Source: Alphaproteobacteria bacterium (GTDB lineage: Bacteria > Pseudomonadota > Alphaproteobacteria > Caulobacterales > Parvularculaceae). Taken from it: a stretch of DNA of 64,000 nucleotides. Shown piece after piece: positions 256 to 4,939 of this stretch. A program made the translations under genes and the position numbers. Positions within the stretch are counted from its first letter, which is position 1. Each line of letters opens with the position of its first letter. The notes below the pieces were generated by a model. The model was not told the DNA's origin, did not search any database, and saw nothing but the letters and a program-made list of their open reading frames with translations. Location of the stretch: positions 124,001 through 188,000 of the forward strand of contig JAUIMC010000002.1 in the NCBI GenBank assembly GCA_030433215.1. Reading direction: 5' to 3'.

Positions 256-648
256 ATGAACCCTCGCGCCGTCATCGCCGCCGCCGTCAGCACCCTGATT
301 TTCGGGGCCGGCTGTTCGCGCGAGCAAATGGCCGTCCCCCCGGCGCCCAGCCTCAAGCCCCAATGCGGCGTCGCCTCCTATTATCACGACACCCTGGCGG
401 GGAACCTCACCGCCAATGGCGAGATCTACGACCCGGAAGAGATGACCGCCGCCCACAAAAGGCTGCCCTTCGACACCGAGCTCGTGGTGCGCCGGCGCGA
501 TACGGGCGAGACCGTGGAAGTGCGCGTCAATGACCGCGGCCCGTTCGTCAAGGGACGGATCATCGACCTCTCCCCCACCGCCGCCGAGGAAATCAGCCTT
601 ACGGAAGGCGATGGGGTGGCTGAGGTTTGTTTGGTGCGGGTGGGATGA
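256..648 (+). CDS. RlpA-like septal ring lytic transglycosylase domain lipoprotein
   Basis: A 130-residue protein with a lipoprotein signal peptide (lipobox around Gly-Ala-Gly-Cys, Cys near residue 19), followed by a double-psi beta-barrel domain. The family signature is visible in the G-x-AS-YY start (GVASYYHD), the T-A-x-G-E-x-Y region, a LPF(D)T segment and VRVNDRGPF. RlpA proteins act in the periplasm on peptidoglycan lacking stem peptides. It is short: there is no SPOR domain, only the catalytic-type domain. The start at 256 was chosen because it begins directly with the signal peptide; the reading frame extends further upstream through the repeats without coding character. A neighbour of the retron but base-composition typical of the host. 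Confidence 0.8.
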   Translation: MNPRAVIAAAVSTLIFGAGCSREQMAVPPAPSLKPQCGVASYYHDTLAGNLTANGEIYDPEEMTAAHKRLPFDTELVVRRRDTGETVEVRVNDRGPFVKGRIIDLSPTAAEEISLTEGDGVAEVCLVRVG

Positions 649-691
649 GATGAATGAGGCTGCAGGCAGTAACTAACACATTTTTCAGCAA

Positions 692-2152
692 TCATTTTGC
701 TAATGACATAATCTTTTTGATAACATTTGAATAACTCTTCAGCTCTGAAGACGCCGCCAATTCATCAAATCCTGATAGATAATTCAAATACCCCCGAAGT
801 TTTGGTAACTCTGCAATAGATGCCTCTGGCATGAGTGAAGCATTATGGAACGCAGCTCTGACTCGACGGCGAAAGACGCGTGGAGGGCGAACGCCAGAAT
901 TAGTAACTAGCCCAGTCACCCTTTGTTGAGCGTATCGACTTGCAATCCTAGTTTTTTCATCTTTTACTTTGAAGCCATTTTTGGATAAGCGTATTTTTGC
1001 GAATGTAAGCGCTGCAATAATTGTTTTGTGGCTTTCACCGCTAATGGTGATGTCATCTGCGTATCTAGTGTACTTTAAGCCCATTCTGAAACAGTACGCC
1101 GCCATCTCGGCGTCAAAATCAAACAGCACGGCATTGGAAATACTAGGGCTTGTGGGCGCTCCTTGAGGGAGGTGACCATCTTTGGTGCTTATAGCGGTCA
1201 ATAGAGATGATGACATCGTATCAAAGCCGCAGGCTACAAATAAGGAATGCACTTGGTTATGTGTTATTGATCCAAAGTAATTTTCTATATCTATATTAGC
1301 CACAAAACGCTTGCCAACATGTTGAGCTGCGTTTTCTTTAATACCACAGCGCGGTCGGTATGATGTCACAGACTCATGCACAGGTAATACATGAAAAAGA
1401 TAATCATTACAGAATTGCTGCGCTATCTTTAAGTACAAGCGTGGACTTTCAATGATGCGTTCGCCACCACACTTTTTCTTTAAAGAAAAGCTACGCCAAT
1501 GTTTTTCAGGCTTTCGAAGAAAGCTAACAATTAGCCCCGGAGATATTCCGATCATCAACCCCATTGTATTGGCGCTGATTTCGAGGGTTTCACTATGGCT
1601 ATTACTAGCCAAATTAAGCTGCTTGGCATTAGAGAATGAAAGATATTGATTGAAATCGGTGTCGCGTGAGGTTTGCAATGGACCAGTTTTAGATGAAAAC
1701 TGCTTTGAAAGGCGAGGCCAATAAATCTGGACTCTAGGGACGACGAGTCCAGATTTATTGGCCTCGCCCCTTTTTGTGAGTGTTCTTGCATCTACAGACG
1801 GCGAAACGCCGCCCGATTCCTTAACAAGCTCCTCACGCGACTTCCCTATTCTAGCGCGATGGGCCGTTTTTAACAAGTAGATACGCTCTCTATCACGAGC
1901 GTATCTATACTCGCGGTCAAAATAGGCATTACCCCCCAAGGTAAGCGAAAATAAATTCGGTGAGCGGCGGATTCTGAGAAGCCGGCCAAGCCTCTCTTGT
2001 TCAAAGCAAAATTTTTGAATTTCATCGATGGTTGGAAGAGATTCATCCTTATTGAATGCCGCTAATAGATAATTCCGAATTTCATTCGGTGCCGCCGGCT
2101 GAATTACTCCAATAATCCATAGAAGGGTTTGTTGATTAAATGCACGGCGCAT
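692..2152 (-). CDS. Retron reverse transcriptase with N-terminal winged-helix domain; frame runs through the msr-msd RNA
   Basis: 486 residues. Residues about 8-78 look like a winged helix (helix-rich start, L-x-x-L-x-x-x-G-R-L-x-R, then F-S-LT-x-x-G). Residues 105-164 are encoded by the msr-msd segment. RT homology starts around residue 166-200: NAAQH (274-278, the retron NAxxH motif), motif A with Asp288 in NIDIENYF, QGAPTSP (330-336), YADD (364-367) and VTG (412-414, retron region Y). There is no maturase or endonuclease domain, which argues against a group II intron. The ATG overlaps the effector stop (TAATG) and follows an AGGGGTGAG ribosome site. Inside the frame, the first ATG near the RT domain (Met197, 1564) has no ribosome site. 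Clearly AT-rich against the host genes. By family knowledge it makes msDNA for a tripartite anti-phage system; the fusion itself is read from the sequence. Confidence 0.92.
   Translation of the reverse strand: MRRAFNQQTLLWIIGVIQPAAPNEIRNYLLAAFNKDESLPTIDEIQKFCFEQERLGRLLRIRRSPNLFSLTLGGNAYFDREYRYARDRERIYLLKTAHRARIGKSREELVKESGGVSPSVDARTLTKRGEANKSGLVVPRVQIYWPRLSKQFSSKTGPLQTSRDTDFNQYLSFSNAKQLNLASNSHSETLEISANTMGLMIGISPGLIVSFLRKPEKHWRSFSLKKKCGGERIIESPRLYLKIAQQFCNDYLFHVLPVHESVTSYRPRCGIKENAAQHVGKRFVANIDIENYFGSITHNQVHSLFVACGFDTMSSSLLTAISTKDGHLPQGAPTSPSISNAVLFDFDAEMAAYCFRMGLKYTRYADDITISGESHKTIIAALTFAKIRLSKNGFKVKDEKTRIASRYAQQRVTGLVTNSGVRPPRVFRRRVRAAFHNASLMPEASIAELPKLRGYLNYLSGFDELAASSELKSYSNVIKKIMSLAK
1661..1841 (-). 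ncRNA. Retron msr-msd RNA, embedded in the RT reading frame
   Basis: Reading the minus strand: a1 is GTCGCGTGAGG (1841-1831) and a2 is its exact 11-bp complement (1671-1661). AGC follows a1 at once (1830-1828), placing the candidate branching G at 1829. The msr part has a GC-rich hairpin with a UUU loop (about 1797-1815). The msd part has a perfect 24-bp stem (1768-1745 with 1734-1711, 10-nt loop) and then a 7-bp hairpin (CAGTTTT/AAAACTG, about 1703-1685). This order of parts matches known retron RNAs. The whole stretch is open in the RT frame and encodes residues 105-164. Boundaries of the mature msDNA cannot be set from sequence alone. Confidence 0.85.
1711..1768 (-). repeat. msd long stem (24-bp perfect inverted repeat)
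   Basis: Arms 1711-1734 and 1745-1768 are perfectly complementary and leave the 10-nt loop 1735-1744. A perfect stem of this length within a coding frame is not expected by chance. It encodes the two stretches EANKSG and VQIYWP, related only through complementarity. This is the hallmark double-stranded part of an msDNA. Confidence 0.9.
1878..1907 (-). repeat. 11-bp hairpin just upstream of retron a1
   Basis: TAGATACGCTC (1878-1888) pairs perfectly with GAGCGTATCTA (1897-1907) across an 8-nt loop. It lies 36 bases 5' of a1 on the transcript, outside the a1/a2 unit and inside the winged-helix/RT frame. It could be a processing, translation-control or RNA-structure element of the retron transcript, or chance. 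Confidence 0.55.
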
Positions 2153-2727
2153 TACTCACCCCTTGGTCGTCCTCGTTTGTCCAGAATTTGAATGCTTCGT
2201 TTATTCGCCAATATTTTTGTGATTTCTTGGACCTCGTAAGACTCAAAATCGATGTAATAGGTGTGGCCAAACCCTAACAATGATCTGACAGGGCCTTCAT
2301 TGAAATAGCTTGCCCCGGTTTCATGCTGGTGACCGACAAGAACTATAAACGCTGGTTTTGGTGATTTGTTTAGATGCCCGTTCTCATGGACATAATGCCA
2401 ACTAAATAAGCCAAACTCACAAAACGAACCAACGCTATCGGCTATGATGATAATAGCGTTGCATTGGCCTTTAGCAAATTCCAGCTCGTTATCTTGAGCA
2501 TTGAGGCCAAAATCTAGCCGTTGATTCTCTAGCCCATCATCTTCACCCAAAACAACTTCAAACCCGTTCGCTTCTAATTCAGCGATAAGTTTTCCCCTCA
2601 ACTGAGCAGCTGGATTCGGACTGTCTTCCCTTAACGTTGGGCCACACAGAAAAACCGTGAAAGGCTCATCCTTTGCAAGTTCTTTTAATAGCTCTACATG
2701 GCGTTGCACTGATGGCTTAAGTGTCAT
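2152..2727 (-). CDS. Nucleoside deoxyribosyltransferase-like retron effector
   Basis: 191 residues. Features of the NDT-like fold: FLCGPT near residue 26, a DDGLENQRLDFG segment, then ELEFAKGQCNAIIIIAD leading to SVGSFCEFG with Glu104 at the place of the family's catalytic glutamate. In Ec86-type retrons an effector of this family is held inactive by RT-msDNA and released on phage attack; here that role is inferred from operon position. Characterised Ec86/Ec73-type effectors also carry a winged-helix DNA-binding domain; this one stops right after the NDT domain, and a winged helix opens the next gene. Its stop overlaps the RT start (TAATG), so translation is probably coupled. No strong ribosome site precedes its ATG. 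Confidence 0.85.
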   Translation of the reverse strand: MTLKPSVQRHVELLKELAKDEPFTVFLCGPTLREDSPNPAAQLRGKLIAELEANGFEVVLGEDDGLENQRLDFGLNAQDNELEFAKGQCNAIIIIADSVGSFCEFGLFSWHYVHENGHLNKSPKPAFIVLVGHQHETGASYFNEGPVRSLLGFGHTYYIDFESYEVQEITKILANKRSIQILDKRGRPRGE

Positions 2728-2757
2728 CGTATGGCTGATATCTAAGAGATACTGTGT

Positions 2758-2892
2758 TTAGATATGTATTACTCTACCATCTACATCAAGTACAGATTCG
2801 TGGATCATTTTCGAGAGGGTCGGGTGCGGGAAGGTGGCGTGCATCAGGTCTTCTTCCGTGCCCTCCATAAATCGCGCGATCCGCACCCCGTC
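2758..2892 (-). pseudogene. Duplicated 3' end of lpd (dihydrolipoamide dehydrogenase)
   Basis: On the minus strand this reads MEGTEEDLMHATFPHPTLSK and on to HESVLDVDGRVIHI then TAA, without a frameshift. It matches the C-terminus of the lpdA gene at 3524 (about 39 codons). The central 24 codons differ from lpdA at only 9 of 72 bases, but the last 13 codons keep the protein sequence in AT-rich codons. No start codon or upstream gene body is present, and the frame meets a stop at 2893. It ends 31 bases before the effector ATG. It looks like the edge of the imported retron cassette, which carried its own version of the lpd 3' end. Confidence 0.85.
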
Positions 2893-3523: not shown

Positions 3524-4939
3524 CTAGACGTGGATCACGCGCCCATAGGCGTCGAGGGTCGCTTCGTGCATCATCTCCGAGAGCGTCGGGTGCGGGAAGA
3601 TGGCGTGCATCAAATCTTCCTCCGTACCCTCCATGGAGCGCGCGAGGCCGAAGCCCTGGATCAGCTCGGTGACTTCCGCGCCGATCATGTGGGCGCCGAT
3701 AAGCTCGCCTGTCTTTTCGTCGAAGATGGTTTTGACCATGCCTTCGGGCTCGCCGAGCGCGATCGCCTTGCCGTTGCCCACAAAGGGAAAGCGCCCGATC
3801 TTGACCTTGCGGCCCGCCTCTTTGGCTTGGGCCTCGGTAAGCCCGACGCTCGCGACCTGCGGGTTCGAATAGGTGCAGCCCGGTATATTGTCGACCTCCA
3901 TGGGGTGAAGGCCTTTGACGCCGGCGATTTTCTCGACGCAGAGGACGCCTTCATGCGAGGCTTTGTGCGCGAGCCAGGGCGCGCCCACGAGATCGCCGAT
4001 GGCGTAGAGCCCCTTGACGCCCGTCTCCAGCCATTCATTGACGACCACATGGCCGCGCTCGACCTTGGCGCCGACCGCTTCGAGCCCGATATTCTCCGTG
4101 TTCCCCGTAATCCCGATGGCGAGGATGACGCGGTCGGCCTCCACGGTTTCGGTCTTGCCGTCTTTCAGCTTGACGGTCGCGGTCACCTTGTCGGCGCCCT
4201 TCTCCAGCTTGTCGACGCTGGCGGAGGTGAGGATCTTCATGCCCGCCTTCTTGAAGCGCTTCTCGGCGAACTTCGAAATCTCCGCGTCTTCGGCGGGCAG
4301 GATGCGGTCGACCATCTCCACCACCGTCGTCTCCGCGCCGAGCGCGTTATAGAAACTCGCGAACTCGATGCCGATGGCGCCGGACCCGATGACGAGGAGC
4401 TTTTTCGGCATGACGTCGGGGACCATCGCCTCTTTCGCCGTCCAGATGAACTTGCCGTCAGGCTCGAGGCCCGCCTGGGGGATGGTGCGCGCCCGCGCGC
4501 CGGTGGCGAGGATGACGTGTTTCGCTTTGATCGTGTCCTCTCCGCTCTCGGTCTTGACCTTGACCAGCGGCGCAGCGGCGCCCTTTTCGAGGCGCGCGGT
4601 TCCCTTGATGACCTCGACCTTGTTCTTCTTCATCAGGCCGGTGACGCCCTTCTCCATGCGCGCCGAGACGCCCCGCGAGCGCTTGACGACCGCCTCGAGG
4701 TCGAAGCTGATATTCTCGGCCTTGAGGCCGTACTCCTCGGCATGCTTCATGTTGGTGTAGACTTCCGCGGTGCGCAGGAGCGCCTTCGTGGGAATGCACC
4801 CCCAGTTGAGGCAGACCCCGCCGAGCGCGTCGCGCTCCACGATGACGGTCTTCAGCCCAAGCTGGCTGGCGCGGATCGCCGCCACATAGCCCCCGGGTCC
4901 CGATCCGATCACGGCGAGATCGCAAACATGTTCCGTCAT
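3524..4939 (-). CDS. lpdA: Dihydrolipoamide dehydrogenase (E3)
   Basis: 471 residues, normal for the family. FAD-binding GxGxxG (IGSGPGGYVAA) at the N-terminus, redox disulfide GGVCLNWGCIPTK (Cys43, Cys48), NAD-binding GSGAIGIEFA, a second FAD motif YAIGDL, and the C-terminal active-site His-Glu segment HPTLSEMMHE. It re-oxidises lipoamide in the 2-oxoacid dehydrogenase and glycine cleavage complexes, in the cytoplasm. The ATG at 4939 is preferred because the FAD motif begins directly after it; the frame extends upstream across the divergent promoter region. No E1/E2 genes are present beside it on this side. Its 3' end is duplicated at 2758-2892. Confidence 0.95.
   Translation of the reverse strand: MTEHVCDLAVIGSGPGGYVAAIRASQLGLKTVIVERDALGGVCLNWGCIPTKALLRTAEVYTNMKHAEEYGLKAENISFDLEAVVKRSRGVSARMEKGVTGLMKKNKVEVIKGTARLEKGAAAPLVKVKTESGEDTIKAKHVILATGARARTIPQAGLEPDGKFIWTAKEAMVPDVMPKKLLVIGSGAIGIEFASFYNALGAETTVVEMVDRILPAEDAEISKFAEKRFKKAGMKILTSASVDKLEKGADKVTATVKLKDGKTETVEADRVILAIGITGNTENIGLEAVGAKVERGHVVVNEWLETGVKGLYAIGDLVGAPWLAHKASHEGVLCVEKIAGVKGLHPMEVDNIPGCTYSNPQVASVGLTEAQAKEAGRKVKIGRFPFVGNGKAIALGEPEGMVKTIFDEKTGELIGAHMIGAEVTELIQGFGLARSMEGTEEDLMHAIFPHPTLSEMMHEATLDAYGRVIHV

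Follow-up and report, generated by a model that had tools for sequence, protein, structure and literature searches.

How can a retron reverse transcriptase (RT) be made from a gene that holds the retron's own RNA in the middle of its reading frame? In a typical retron the msr-msd is non-coding and lies outside the RT ORF, which is the usual arrangement and not a mechanistic requirement. In the window (the whole 64,000-nucleotide stretch analysed here, positions 124,001 to 188,000 of contig JAUIMC010000002.1 from a member of the Parvularculaceae), a reading made from the sequence alone had placed an msr-msd inside an open frame, between a winged-helix (wHTH) domain and the RT, and had proposed that one RNA serves as mRNA, template and structural scaffold. 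Our analysis confirms the placement in the window and in 11 relatives, 12 intact loci in all, and does not support the single RNA as it was stated: a conserved promoter-like motif before a1, the 5′ arm of the a1/a2 stem, suggests that the msr-msd has a transcript of its own. We consider it probable that these loci represent a type II-A variant in which a sense msr-msd is nested in the wHTH/RT frame, the RNA is read through as a linker and a second transcript arises from a hidden promoter.

The ORF of 486 residues (692..2152, minus strand) matches the PADLOC model RT_II-A (PDLC02940) from protein residue 1 to 483 and over model positions 1-474 of 477 (E 4.7e-146); the second-best PADLOC model is RT_III-A (E 2.2e-67), so that the II-A models are the closest to the window RT in PADLOC. 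Its RT part (residues 188-486; 692..1591, minus strand), with YADD at 364-367, matches Pfam RVT_1 (E 4.1e-24), and the RT of Ec86 (retron-Eco1) is both the nearest PDB sequence and the nearest solved structure. Across the 12 members H278 and G414 are invariant and N274, A275, V412 and T413 nearly so; we take these to be the retron RT motifs named NAxxH and VTG, which the RT carries together with YxDD. The wHTH domain (residues 1-103; 1844..2152, minus strand) gave a mean pLDDT of 90.5 when modelled alone with AlphaFold2. It had no significant match in the PDB by sequence profile and none in Foldseek at E 0.001; the top Foldseek matches (E 0.03-0.05) were wHTH-type regulators and chain 8qbl_G of the retron-Eco1 filament. 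In the structure model of the full protein, residues 1-100 and 188-486 are mostly confident and residues 101-187 fall below a pLDDT of 50. Ahead of the ORF on the same strand lies an effector gene of NDT type (191 aa; 2152..2727, minus strand), whose stop overlaps the ORF start (TAATG) and whose product matches PADLOC NDT_II-A (PDLC02929, E 4.7e-36) and no Pfam family. GC content is 0.43 over window positions 651-2760 and 0.64-0.65 outside. Adjoining the retron on its effector side is a 121-bp diverged copy (76%; window 2759-2879 versus 3525-3645) of the 3′ end of a gene that we name by eye as a putative dihydrolipoamide dehydrogenase, and the copy is still translatable in frame to a stop. Horizontal acquisition would account for the stretch 651-2760, which seems to be an insert that carried in a foreign gene end.

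The complete msr-msd occupies 181 bases of the ORF (1661-1841, minus strand; ORF positions 312-492, codons 104/105-164), all of them open in the 486-residue frame as first described. Every structural element of the sequence-only reading was found again, all on the minus strand: an 11-bp perfect stem between a1 (1831..1841) and a2 (1661..1671, the 3′ arm), an msr hairpin with a three-nucleotide UUU loop (1795..1815), an msd stem-loop (1708..1771) with 24 perfect pairs (1711-1734 with 1745-1768) and, 3′ of it, a small 7-bp hairpin (1684..1702; 1684-1690 with 1696-1702). The AGC directly after a1, listed with these elements, stands in the window and does not generalise, since it is missing from this place in the six relatives whose a1 is clear (L031, L045, L046, L047, L049 and L050). 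In retrons a branch G beside a1 primes the 2′-5′-linked msDNA, and on this comparison the AGC does not assign it. None of the Rfam retron families matched the window at the gathering score.

Relatives were collected with PDLC02940 and an N-terminal alignment, and the resulting fused set has 12 distinct intact members: the window, L031, L044 (a gammaproteobacterial MAG), L045 (Desulfobacteraceae), L046 (Sessilibacter), L047 (Parvularcula maris), L048 (Paraglaciecola), L049 (Alteromonadales), L050 (Duganella), L051 (IMG/VR), L060 and L061. They span alpha-, beta- and gammaproteobacteria and the Desulfobacteraceae, and the relatives are 32-41% identical to the window protein over its full length. 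Duplicates were dropped before counting (L001, L062 and L063 of the window, L002 of L047, L030 of L049, and L055-L059 of L048, L044, L050, L045 and L046, respectively). Because the search relied on a model of the whole protein or on an alignment running from wHTH to RT, it favoured continuous forms in the sample. The fused family is rare: scans of relatives, class and phylum covering 883 genomes gave full-length matches only in the window, G052, G768 and G780, and the protein of G052, a genome of the same family as that of the window, reads as identical to that of Parvularcula maris. A scan of genome contigs with the single protein returned no relatives, the alignment scan had 7 of 30 matched stretches confirmed, and two scans of viral contigs led to the single locus L051 both times. 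Scans of the genomes around relatives added L060 and L061, and further such scans brought nothing new; their limit of E 1e-80 selects for matches over the full length, and stops were read through and counted. Searches of plasmids, phages and E. coli yielded no intact copy among the matches listed and one damaged copy, L043; in some of them no record had a match covering 80% of the query.

The RNA fold is conserved across this set. The order of elements is identical in the ten members folded singly, and RNAfold gives the expected a1/a2 pairing in L044. With the 12 loci aligned by plain MAFFT, RNAalifold placed 42 pairs, 33 of them with compensatory double changes, at 6 of 7 pairs in the a1/a2 helix, 4 of 8 in the msr hairpin (99.0% of cells paired), 20 of 22 in the msd stem and 3 of 5 in the small 3′ hairpin (93.0% of cells paired). 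Paired cells amounted to 91.4%, against 67.9% in shuffled and 34-45% in slid controls, and cells with double changes to 130 against 42 in shuffled alignments; none of 500 shuffles reached the real alignment on any of five measures. A covariance model of the RNA recovered L043, which lay outside the model-building set, at 92.6 bits. In the window's own genome it found one place and a weak match on the opposite strand, owing to the palindromic msd stem, and it matched the non-fused locus L027 weakly (21.4 bits, E 0.0037). The RNA thus has the a1/a2 stem, the msr hairpin and the msd stem that mark a retron msr-msd.

The frame across this RNA is open in every case. The ORF frame has no stop within the ncRNA segment in any of the 12 loci, and the other two sense frames have at least one stop in 23 of 24 cases, a count made with the L044 segment off-place (recounted on the aligned segment, L044 has 0 stops). 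Taken by itself, the open frame of the window is unremarkable (P = 0.129 under a dinucleotide shuffle and 0.037 under a fold-keeping shuffle), and the case becomes strong only with the relatives. Per locus, P lies at 0.03-0.20 and 0.02-0.10 under the two shuffles, and the joint log10 P over 12 loci is -13.5 and, with the fold kept, -16.2, values that overstate independence because the loci share ancestry. From the Leu-Leu of the wHTH domain to the 'IG' motif of the RT there are 100-110 codons, in phase in every locus. The earlier suggestion of selection for openness thus gains from the relatives, and an open frame coexists with covarying stems, the combination for which an alignment of homologs had been proposed; the frameshifts or stops in the ncRNA that were to speak against it are absent from the 12 intact loci, and the damaged L043 is broken outside the ncRNA. 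One could argue that the window holds an inactive or misassembled retron that lacks stops by luck, as its own P of 0.04-0.13 would permit, but the same arrangement with covariation in 12 separate assemblies makes chance or artefact scarcely credible.

Where, then, does translation of the RT begin? Five of the 12 loci (L031, L045, L048, L049 and L050) lack any ATG, GTG or TTG on the way from a2 to the 'IG' motif of the RT, and the other seven have no conserved start codon between a2 and the RT core. The internal start codons of the window are TTG159, TTG181, ATG197, TTG199 and ATG200; inspection by eye of the 18 nt upstream of each found no Shine-Dalgarno-like motif at a usable distance, which agrees with the earlier remark that no ribosome site precedes an internal RT start. 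The reading of the wHTH domain is ended by a stop in none of the 12 loci. A start inside the ncRNA was considered separately and rejected, as the candidate starts are not conserved. The lack of any start codon between a2 and the RT core in five loci makes it very probable that the RT is made by reading through the RNA, and translation through the msr-msd to give a wHTH-linker-RT protein is, judged from start codons and the open frame in 12 of 12 loci, most likely, as had been supposed for the window. An RT that starts after a2 as a separate protein, with the continuous frame a matter of chance, has something to recommend it in L032, a relative with split genes whose RT ATG (position 1360) sits, in the predicted fold, within the a2 arm, and in TTG181 and ATG197 of the window. 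We nonetheless judge it very unlikely: start codons are missing or unconserved, the wHTH reading runs on without a stop, and substitution of the coding type is seen directly after a2. The 12 intact loci give no sign of such a start.

This last point comes from the closest pair of loci, L048 and L049, which are 64% identical. Their differences at codon positions 1, 2 and 3 are.30/.19/.55 in the wHTH domain,.19/.17/.16 in the ncRNA,.44/.19/.67 after a2 and.26/.16/.53 in the RT, so that codon periodicity is gone inside the RNA and is back directly after a2. (Amino-acid similarity in frame 0 was not used because the alignment had been made at the protein level.) This pattern indicates that the RNA appears to dictate the nested bases and that coding rules resume at a2. 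Taken with the low confidence of the structure model, it makes the sequence of the linker (residues 105-164; 1661..1841, minus strand) look like a by-product of the RNA. Within the linker Trp145 is invariant across the 12 loci and Gln151 almost so, and a short low-confidence helix (146-153) overlaps this part; the constraint may act on the RNA or on the protein. Ribosomes are known to bypass messenger segments in phage T4 gene 60 and at the mitochondrial byps, and bypassing of the structured segment, which would leave it untranslated, would likewise agree with the absence of codon-type selection on its amino acids in L048 and L049. Bypassing, however, would not require the segment to stay open and in phase, as it does in all 12 loci, and we regard this explanation as highly improbable.

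Reading through the RNA leaves the question of what serves as template. Within the final wHTH codons, the window has a -35-like hexamer, TTGTTA (1871..1876, minus strand; codons Leu93-Leu94), and 17 nt past it a -10-like hexamer, TAGAAT (1848..1853, minus strand), 6 nt before a1. A consensus promoter scan of the window locus found 4 sites against 4.3 expected, and such a scan alone means little. Comparison of the loci is more telling. On the sense strand of the 12 ORFs the pattern TTG-N20-TANNNT has 11 matches, 10 of them at Leu93 just before a1, each in a different locus. Leu93 is encoded by TTG in 11 of 12 loci (P = 1.3e-7 given each gene's own Leu usage, the TTG share of Leu codons per gene being about 14-26%), and nine other conserved Leu columns use TTG 0-3 times. 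Against a synonymous-codon null, the strict pattern occurs at the right distance from a1 nine times where 0.45 are expected, and promoter scores combined by Fisher's method give p = 1.3e-6. Taken singly, the score is unremarkable in L046, L047, L048, L049 and L060 (P 0.13-0.47, synonymous null); L031 (TAGAAA) and L051 lack the strict pattern, which in L060 stands 10 nt away from a1. The sigma-70 consensus behind the scoring matrices may not suit all hosts. The damaged L043 carries TTGACA-16-TAAATT 8 nt before a1, and among four split relatives a similar motif precedes a1 in three, being weak in L032 and absent from L052; for this comparison a1 was set by eye in L052, L054 and L043. The simplest reading is that the Leu93 motif is a sigma-70-like promoter whose transcript would start at or near a1, and the similar motif in three of the four split relatives suggests that a separate transcript is ancestral.

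These observations bear directly on the proposal of a single RNA, in which the operon mRNA would be both message and template, the msr-msd would fold in ribosome-free mRNA and msDNA synthesis would use up the RT message in a self-limiting loop. Any mRNA for the whole RT protein necessarily contains the msr-msd, and no separate 3′ end is marked for a shorter RNA: a terminator-like site after a2 was not found on the minus strand of the scanned stretch, and coding-type substitution resumes at a2. However, the conserved motif would start transcription near a1, and three of the four split relatives have such a motif. The promoter-like motif therefore favours a separate nested ncRNA transcript, and we think a single all-purpose RNA rather unlikely. 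Equally doubtful, in our estimate, is a version in cis, in which the RT would copy its own message and destroy it, ribosome transit and msDNA synthesis would be mutually exclusive, the complex would count itself and the promoter would only top up the template.

We thus favour a scheme with a nested second transcript. An operon mRNA would encode the effector and then, across the overlapping stop and start, the wHTH-linker-RT protein, with ribosomes reading straight through the msr-msd. The ~60 RNA-encoded residues would form an unstructured linker whose sequence is set by the RNA and which chiefly needs to be free of stops. A second transcript, from the sigma-70-like promoter in the last wHTH codons and starting at or next to a1, would fold as the msr-msd RNA and provide the main msDNA template for the RT. 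For retrons in general, PMC12548924 describes a complex that keeps the effector in check until a phage sets it off. We infer that msDNA is produced here and that RT-wHTH, msDNA and effector may assemble into the usual defence complex, with the effector held until a phage trigger.

How the nested arrangement could have arisen is suggested by loci in which it is not found. One branch (99/99) of an RT tree with 45 rows separates the 12 fused members plus L043 from the 32 others, which fits one origin of the fused form. The split relative L032 has an NDT-type gene, a wHTH gene, a gap and an RT gene, with 3 nt between the wHTH stop and a1; in L052, L053 and L054 a gene annotated as phosphoribosyltransferase or hypothetical is followed by a small hypothetical gene, a gap and the RT. 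All share with the fused clade the gene order and a folded stretch before the RT. Unlike in the fused clade, this stretch lies between genes, and both candidate frames contain stops in four of four; the covariance model of the fused clade finds no match in L032 or L052-L054 at E up to 1. Judged by its layout, L032 is plausibly of the forerunner type, from which in-phase loss of the wHTH stop would yield the fused form. Among 32 non-fused RTs (a comparison that left out L013, L020 and L029 as weak, duplicate or broken), the frame is open for 8-197 codons ahead of the 'IG' column, against at least 193 in fused members. The longest of these, in L035 (178) and L026 (197), belong to a different N-terminal extension; a 16-bp pair begins 204 nt before the frame of L035, and L026 has none of at least 10 bp. 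In L005 and L011 inverted pairs of 13-14 bp lie across the point where the open frame begins, and part of an msr-msd possibly overlaps the RT frame there. The damaged copy L043 (3001-4402), on a K. pneumoniae IncFIB plasmid, has lost the frame in both the wHTH and RT parts and keeps the ncRNA and the promoter-like motif; its ncRNA is open in one frame, and the breaks lie upstream and downstream of it.

The effectors of the fused loci vary. A PADLOC effector scan covered seven of these loci, and six (the window, L031, L044, L046, L048 and L050) matched PDLC02929. In L031 (95-1504) the NDT-type domain is fused to an alpha/beta-hydrolase-like (DUF676) domain, a combination that replaces NDT alone, and in L048 (1685-3001) and L049 (1721-3001) an extra N-terminal domain stands ahead of the NDT-type part. 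That of L048 matches PADLOC LmuA (E 1.1e-10) and no Pfam family and is protease-like by eye. The neighbour of the RT in L060 did not match PDLC02929, and no NDT gene was seen beside this locus; at 642-1610 (minus strand) a gene for a pentapeptide-repeat protein, whose N-terminus looks hydrophobic by eye, overlaps the RT at its 3′ end and may encode an alternative effector.

All 12 fused members match PDLC02940, and by these profile matches the fused clade is a variant of type II-A retrons whose distinguishing feature is the msr-msd inside the ORF. The family itself is already represented in PADLOC, a public library that models the fused protein as a single RT, and nothing consulted here identifies the central stretch as the msr-msd gene. 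Retron-Eco1 resembles the window locus in its RT fold (Ec86; 7v9u, 7v9x, 8qbl; Foldseek E 2.9e-20) and, weakly, in the fold of the wHTH domain, which matched one chain of its filament structure (E 0.044). Eco1 itself has its msr-msd outside the genes, and there the effector, rather than the RT, carries the wHTH as a fusion. Another retron RT gene with an RNA element inside is that of retron-Bth1, which holds a self-splicing group II intron (PMC12548924) and not, as here, the retron's own RNA. No description of an in-ORF msr-msd appears in the literature searched, consisting of titles and abstracts and of portions of PMC6868368, PMC9252829 and PMC12548924; prior mention in the classification paper of Mestre 2020 (gkaa1149) or in the 2024 retron census is possible. 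The promoter-like motif before a1 is new here.

Searches for ncRNAs confined to intergenic sequence would miss retrons of this kind, and an RT moved to another host would carry its own template along unless the gene is recoded. If a single RNA did serve all purposes, that would be more remarkable than a nested transcript. What separates translation from reverse transcription where the RNAs overlap, and whether the linker is inert, can now be tested. Across wide divergence an RT template, a structural RNA and a protein code share the same bases in this family, which would make it a natural example of a nested functional RNA gene.
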